Notes under the pieces: model-generated
Database searches by the model: none
What the model was told of the DNA's origin: nothing
Seen by the model: the letters and a program-made list of their open reading frames with translations, nothing else
In this document: piece by piece, positions 67 to 17,840 of the stretch
Position numbering within the stretch: position 1 is the first letter of the stretch
Layout of the letters: every line of letters begins with the position of its first letter
DNA from: Actinomycetes bacterium
GTDB lineage: Bacteria; Actinomycetota; Thermoleophilia; Solirubrobacterales; Solirubrobacteraceae
DNA length: 64,000 bases
Assembly (NCBI GenBank): GCA_021792455.1
Contig: JAJYUP010000004.1
Span: 1 to 64,000 of the forward strand
Reading direction: 5' to 3'
Made by a program: the position numbers and the translations under genes

Positions 67-235
67 GTGTGGAGGATCATTTTAGGGGGGCGAACGGATG
101 TTCGCCCCTTCGTGGTTGGCGCAGCCTGATCCGCCGCGAGGCCGCTCGCCCTCTGCGCCCTCGAGCAGGCTCGAGGTGGGACCTCTCAGGCGCCGCGCGA
201 TCGAGCGGGCTTCGCGCTAACCTGCACCCTCGCAA

Positions 236-331
236 GCGCCCGTAGCTCAGTGGTCAACGGTTCTCTACGGGGAGCCAAAGAGCGGCGGTCTTTCAAACCG
301 CAGGTCGGGAGTTCGATTCTCCCCGGGCGCA
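236..331 (+). tRNA. tRNA-like gene with anticodon TTC (292-294) and a 31-nt D-loop carrying a hairpin insertion; body resembles tRNA-Arg
   Basis: Perfect 7-bp acceptor GCGCCCG/CGGGCGC, D stem GCTC/GAGC, anticodon stem GCGGT/ACCGC with 7-nt loop CTTTCAA, T stem GGGAG/CTCCC with loop TTCGATT, discriminator A. D-loop 249-279 contains GGTTCTC-TACG-GGGAGCC hairpin. Confidence 0.75.
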
Positions 332-17682: not shown

Positions 17683-17840
17683 GCGCCGTTCGTGCCGAAT
17701 CCTCGCCCCCAAGGGGGCTTGGAGCGGGGGACCCAAGGCGGCCGCGAGGCCGCAGGGGCGAACCGCCACATCTGTGGCGCAGCGCGATGCGCGAGCCCGA
17801 CAGCTGACCCCGTAGGCGCCCGGAAAACCGAAAGGACGCA
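17683..17840 (+). ncRNA. Cyclic di-AMP riboswitch (ydaO-yuaA type)
   Basis: Ordered conserved blocks: TGCCGAATCC, GCGGGGGACCCAA, GGGGCGAA, CAGCTGACCCCGTAGGCG and AAAGGACG; directly upstream of a peptidoglycan-associated protein gene. Confidence 0.88.

Follow-up and report, generated by a model that had tools for sequence, protein, structure and literature searches.

A chromosomal tRNA with a hairpin in its D-loop as the probable tRNA-Glu(UUC) of a Solirubrobacteraceae genus

Introduction

Can a soil actinobacterium read one of its sense codons with a tRNA that bears a fifth arm? The question is raised by a gene of 96 nucleotides (nt) at positions 236–331 (+ strand) of contig JAJYUP010000004.1 from the Solirubrobacteraceae assembly GCA_021792455.1, of which the first 64,000 nt, hereafter the window, were analysed. 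The gene specifies a tRNA with the anticodon UUC and a hairpin lodged in its D-loop. An earlier reading of the letters alone (the original prediction) had left four options for it, namely a decaying tRNA, a mobile-element tRNA, a non-translational tRNA or a functional tRNA with an expanded D-arm, and had proposed running ARAGORN, looking for the insertion in related genomes and checking the hairpin stem for covariation. The last option emerges as the best supported of the four: we propose, with a probability of roughly 0.8 and on the basis of sequence comparisons, that this is a functional chromosomal five-armed tRNA-Glu(UUC), which stands in for the canonical tRNA and with which the cell most likely reads GAA.

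A tRNA gene with an additional helix

The Rfam tRNA model RF00005 matches positions 236–331 end to end, scoring 65.5 bits where the gathering threshold is 29, and its alignment places the extra part as a long insert in the D-loop. The four-arm cloverleaf of RF00005 members is present: an acceptor stem of 7 base pairs (bp; 5′ strand 236–242, partner 324–330, 100% paired in the 25 copies aligned below); a D-stem of 4 bp (GCTC at 245–248, partner 280–283, invariant in those copies); and anticodon and T-stems of 5 bp each, with the discriminator A331 and no encoded CCA. The anticodon arm reads GCGGT-CTTTCAA-ACCGC, its loop at 290–296 presenting TTC at 292–294 in 25/25 aligned copies, and the Rfam alignment gives a variable loop (AGGTC, 302–306) of 5 nt with nt 47 present, unlike that of canonical tRNA-Glu. 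Inside the 31-nt D-loop, the conserved G18-G19-U-N-A-A is followed by the hairpin GGTTCTC-TACG-GGGAGCC (259–276), comprising a 5′ arm at 259–265, a loop at 266–269 that differs in length and letters among copies and a 3′ arm at 270–276. The four intact arms, the long D-loop, the hairpin and the anticodon all lie where the original prediction had placed them. Unlike ordinary tRNAs, this one thus holds a further helix in its D-loop, which the RF00005 model does not forbid; because this helix is a covarying hairpin of 7 bp, we class the molecule as a variant tRNA. A pattern for tRNAs with a D-loop insert matched once in the window and in none of 100 shuffles. ARAGORN likewise predicts a tRNA at 236–331, but it reads the hairpin of the D-loop as the anticodon arm and therefore assigns the anticodon '(ggga)'.

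The case for the hairpin comes from an alignment of 25 distinct copies of 96–97 nt, 19 from genomes and six from viral contigs. Compensatory changes are seen at each of the seven hairpin pairs, and 96% of cells are paired; the values for the whole structure were reached by 0/500 shuffles, and the pairing signal is lost when the partner is slid by 1–3 columns. RNAalifold recovers this helix except for one pair, and four of the seven pairs show compensatory changes within the genus alone. The flanks of the hairpin are invariant among the 25 copies (AGTGGTNAA on the 5′ side and AAGAGC on the 3′ side). These flanks bear on an alternative, in which the hairpin is a precursor element excised during maturation to leave an ordinary D-loop: both are A-rich, as a processing site might be, and removal would yield a tRNA of normal size. 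Yet inspection of the 20 nt by eye reveals neither a bulge-helix-bulge nor traits of a group I intron (no bulge-helix-bulge model was run), a cmscan search returned no match to an intron family and bacteria are not known to have the archaeal splicing enzymes; excision hence appears unlikely. In our preferred reading, the gene would be expressed and the hairpin kept in the mature tRNA, where it would project from the elbow of the L.

Comparable departures from the standard tRNA shape are of different kinds. In tRNA-Sec and the 8/4 or 9/3 'allo-tRNAs', an abnormal arm results from a changed acceptor/T branch or a lengthened D-stem; in the window tRNA both of these are normal and the new helix lies within the D-loop. 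Archaeal tRNA genes can hold introns at non-canonical places (PMC8450103) and share with it extra sequence in the D-loop region; however, their inserts form a bulge-helix-bulge and are spliced, whereas none is seen by eye in the window tRNA and its host is bacterial. Our searches also returned archaeal tRNAs with long D-loop inserts (L135, L136, L175, L184, L187, L199 and L202), some of which can form hairpins of 7–12 bp and are possibly introns. Many genome-wide pattern matches are tandem or truncated tRNAs, N gaps or archaeal inserts outside this family.

Distribution, and probable displacement of the canonical gene

Full-length copies occur in 21/24 genomes of the genus, the three without one being 58–74% complete. 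A broad pattern search across the order found the D-loop form in 32/201 genomes, all from three genera: g1, to which the window belongs (18/19 genomes drawn; family f1), g42 (11/12) and g44 (3/3), the latter two from family f3. This pattern requires CTTTCAA and could not match other anticodons; with a wider pattern that leaves the anticodon free, the copies of this build in genomes are again all UUC. The original prediction had likened the anticodon to that of tRNA-Arg(UCU) with two bases swapped; as a slip in a single genome this is untenable, every chromosomal copy found carrying UUC, although the design of the search accounts for part of this. Most relatives in a public collection are metagenome-assembled genomes titled Solirubrobacteraceae, Solirubrobacterales or Actinomycetota. 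Two further copies are in assemblies titled Acidimicrobiaceae (L165) and Alphaproteobacteria (L180), the latter likely misbinned because it is identical to a Solirubrobacterales copy (L193). One g44 genome (G087) has two D-loop UUC tRNAs (L342 and L343) with different hairpin sequences.

What, then, has become of the canonical tRNA-Glu(UUC) in these organisms? In the genome of the window, which is 83% complete, the D-loop gene is the only one of 44 tRNAs with the anticodon UUC, and the Glu-CUC tRNA is of canonical build. Similarly, among 45 tRNAs of a second genome of the genus (G018, 97% complete), the only UUC tRNA is the D-loop form. A generic UUC-tRNA pattern run on six genomes of the genus returned the D-loop gene, a 3′ fragment of it in G019, matches judged by eye not to be tRNAs and one exception considered below. 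The canonical form, sought with the pattern GTGTARCGGT...TTTCA, is present in 70 of the same 201 genomes, which represent 24 genera; the 32 genomes with the D-loop form are not among them. The remaining genomes have neither form by these patterns, and so possess other forms or are incomplete assemblies. L117 in genome G025 (family f2) is a UUC tRNA with a D-stem GTCC and a 5-nt variable loop, and is of neither the canonical nor the D-loop form.

The genomic neighborhood of the canonical gene offers a further view of its probable loss. In G026 (family f3), the gene is flanked by a coding gene with an Exo_endo_phos domain on one side and an lgt-like gene on the other, and G090 has the same place with ~3.4 kb more. 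In three g42 genomes (G068, G113 and G079) and one g44 genome (G087), both neighbors align but the canonical tRNA is not between them, the gap being 25–43 bp as against ~130–150 bp. The D-loop tRNA lies 2.6–5 kb downstream of this place in the g42 and g44 genomes. Since the canonical form is widespread in the order, we infer that the canonical gene was lost here, rather than gained elsewhere.

The two forms differ well beyond the hairpin. The canonical tRNA-Glu(UUC) of sister genera (G024, G041, G043 and G026) shares with the window tRNA the anticodon UUC, A37, G1-C72, the discriminator A and, presumably, the codon and amino acid; it differs in having a D-stem GTGT, a core of the U11-A24 type, a 4-nt variable loop without nt 47 and a short D-loop, as against the D-stem GCTC/GAGC, the 5-nt variable loop and the 7-bp D-loop hairpin of the window tRNA. 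The body instead resembles the tRNA-Arg(ACG) of its own genome, bearing out the Arg-like cast of the original prediction: the two share the acceptor start GCGCCC, the D-stem GCTC/GAGC and a 3′ half that is 83% identical, whereas the tRNA-Arg(ACG) has another anticodon, a discriminator G in place of A and no D-loop hairpin.

Codon meaning and charging

The Arg-like 3′ half invites the suggestion that the tRNA receives an amino acid other than Glu, making GAA ambiguous or reassigned. We examined the RpoB proteins of 15 genomes with the D-loop tRNA at those columns whose conservation among 12 other genomes is 80% or more: codons GAA fall on Glu in 39/40 cases and codons GAG in 915/939. Reassignment of GAA was rejected on these columns, and charging with another amino acid is barely credible. 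The GluRS (glutamyl-tRNA synthetase) gene, considered for the same purpose, has only two conserved GAA sites.

A further alternative is that the tRNA acts mainly outside translation, for example in tetrapyrrole synthesis or as a regulatory RNA, with GAA being read otherwise. Its unusual shape and a core without the Glu identity elements of Escherichia coli would suit such a role; yet GAA is in use as a Glu codon (119/1501 Glu codons in RpoB), the C34 of Glu-CUC would not be expected to pair with A in the third codon position and the two genomes listed in full have no other UUC tRNA. We thus regard this alternative as distinctly improbable, and the purely non-translational tRNA of the original prediction fares no better. 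Taken together, the lack of another UUC tRNA in those genomes, the expected inability of C34 to read GAA and the retention of Glu at GAA make it most likely that the D-loop tRNA supplies Glu at this codon.

How might GluRS recognize it? The strong determinants of tRNA-Glu are U34, U35, C36 and A37, and in E. coli the major ones include U11-A24, U13-G22:A46 and a variable loop without nt 47 (PMC9976931). The window tRNA keeps U34-U35-C36, A37 and G1-C72. Nearly every genome tested has one full-length GluRS gene (none was found in G009), and the GltX tree follows the families, with the D-loop genera staying within their own; co-transfer of GluRS with the tRNA was rejected on this basis. As the core lacks the classical elements and GluRS shows no matching change, the host enzyme would charge the tRNA mainly through U34-U35-C36-A37. 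The molecule would be a variant of tRNA-Glu that works like one while failing part of the E. coli identity set. As a separate observation, a short second GltX homologue (~300 amino acids, GluQRS-like) occurs in 11/13 genomes without the D-loop tRNA and in 1/16 genomes with both the D-loop tRNA and a GltX match, these representing few independent lineages.

Several points weigh against the proposal of a five-armed reader of GAA: (i) the full tRNA lists cover the genome of the window and G018, both of genus g1, and neither g42 nor g44; (ii) the exception noted above, L120 in G019, is a further tRNA-like sequence with the anticodon UUC, although its body is Gln-like and its anticodon stem has 3/5 pairs; (iii) the mutual exclusion of the two forms rests on three D-loop genera, and no probability is attached to it; (iv) minimum-free-energy folding of single sequences often favors another pairing in the D-loop, the cloverleaf with the hairpin being 0–7 kcal/mol above the minimum, and as these energies do not decide, the hairpin rests on covariation; (v) the tRNA lacks U11-A24 and U13-G22:A46, having instead C11-G24 and C13-G22, and possesses nt 47; (vi) no GluRS residue is shared by, and confined to, the D-loop genera, although a control also gave zero and the comparison has little power.

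Viral relatives and the possible origin of the gene

In a viral collection, 13 contigs carry a tRNA of the same build, and one further copy (L090) is of looser build. The anticodons of the 13 copies are UUC in nine, CCU in two of identical sequence, UGC in one and UUU in one; accordingly, the viral D-loop-hairpin tRNAs L091, L094, L099 and L100 have anticodons for Arg (CCU), Ala (UGC) and Lys (UUU). The viral contigs range in GC content from 0.39 to 0.69, and on several of them there are genes for tail or head proteins, ribonucleotide reductase or a helicase. One copy belongs to a cluster that comprises 14 tRNAs and a transfer-messenger RNA. Among named phages and plasmids, there were partial matches and none at full length; one of these partial matches proved on inspection to be an ordinary tRNA-Val. 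The presence of the D-loop tRNA in two families whose other genera are canonical, and in phages, suggests that the gene was transferred horizontally, in one direction or the other, with phages or further mobile elements as its probable carriers. The viral relatives, most of them UUC, likewise suggest a spread by phages.

tRNA genes are commonly used as integration sites by mobile elements. In three genomes of the genus, 3′ fragments of the tRNA of ~42–47 bp lie 1–6 kb from the full gene (L026 in G021, L027 in G014 and L128 in G019); such 3′-end duplications resemble attachment sites and fit a use of the D-loop tRNA gene as an integration site. No prophage is visible around the window copy. This copy adjoins the start of a divergent uvrA (positions 1–66, − strand, beginning MAISQQIVVSGARQHNLKDISV...), which is also the neighbor in G006, G010, G014, G016 and G018 and lies 1.3 kb off in G021. 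Hence, the mobile-element tRNA of the original prediction stands as regards the family, which is common to viral contigs, but not as regards the window copy, which shares its uvrA neighbor with several related species.

These observations also bear on the view that the gene is a decaying, misassembled or mobile passenger without a cellular role. The fragments, the viral relatives and the failure of ARAGORN to name the tRNA might be taken that way; however, the gene recurs in independent assemblies from 21/24 genomes of the genus, its hairpin shows compensatory changes, uvrA is a conserved neighbor and the canonical gene is absent. A passenger is accordingly very improbable, and decay in particular is refuted by the conservation and covariation.

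Of the remaining features of the locus, a possible −10 element, TAACCT, was identified by eye at 218–223 (+ strand) and is also upstream in G010, G014 and G021, while a promoter scan upstream of the tRNA found nothing. On the 3′ side, the terminator of the original prediction is borne out in part: the stem-loop CCCGCA-TGGTCG-TGCGGG (342–359, + strand), a possible processing or terminator structure, is present, but a scan after the tRNA gene, including this stem-loop, found no T-run terminator. The open frames at 483–2993, just downstream, appear by eye to encode an IS3-type and a broken IS256-type transposase. Further away, a c-di-AMP riboswitch (ydaO/yuaA leader) lies at 17683–17833 (+ strand; 46.2 bits, the gathering threshold being 38).

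Conclusions

Two known phage systems offer partial parallels. In the tRNA-dependent lysogeny of actinobacteriophages, the host tRNA is disrupted and its function passes to a phage tRNA of that isotype (PMC10865867), a precedent for the replacement proposed here; it differs in that the canonical gene at the replaced locus is absent rather than interrupted, and no integrase or prophage is shown. Phage tRNAs that evade tRNA-cleaving defenses differ in sequence from those of the host (PMC10264068, PMC11555353), but the changes described in PMC10264068 lie in the anticodon loop, and the D-loop or D-arm goes unmentioned there. Against this backdrop, we tentatively advance a fuller scenario, possible though somewhat short of even odds: a phage-borne five-armed tRNA-Glu(UUC) might have entered two families of the Solirubrobacterales and displaced the essential GAA tRNA; its hairpin may shield it from tRNA-cleaving defenses or toxins; and GluRS would accept it despite a core without the classical identity elements. 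The open literature that we searched describes no bacterial tRNA with a conserved D-loop hairpin; subscription papers were outside this search, and novelty is thus not proven.

One practical consequence concerns annotation, as misnaming by ARAGORN makes such genomes appear to be without a tRNA-Glu(UUC). The system also opens to experiment the question of how GluRS recognizes a tRNA that lacks the classical determinants of the core, and an essential host gene may here have given way to a tRNA of phage type. If our reading is true, a sense-codon tRNA that has a conserved additional helix in its D-loop and is the likely sole reader of GAA would show that the elbow of a tRNA can bear a fifth arm in normal translation.
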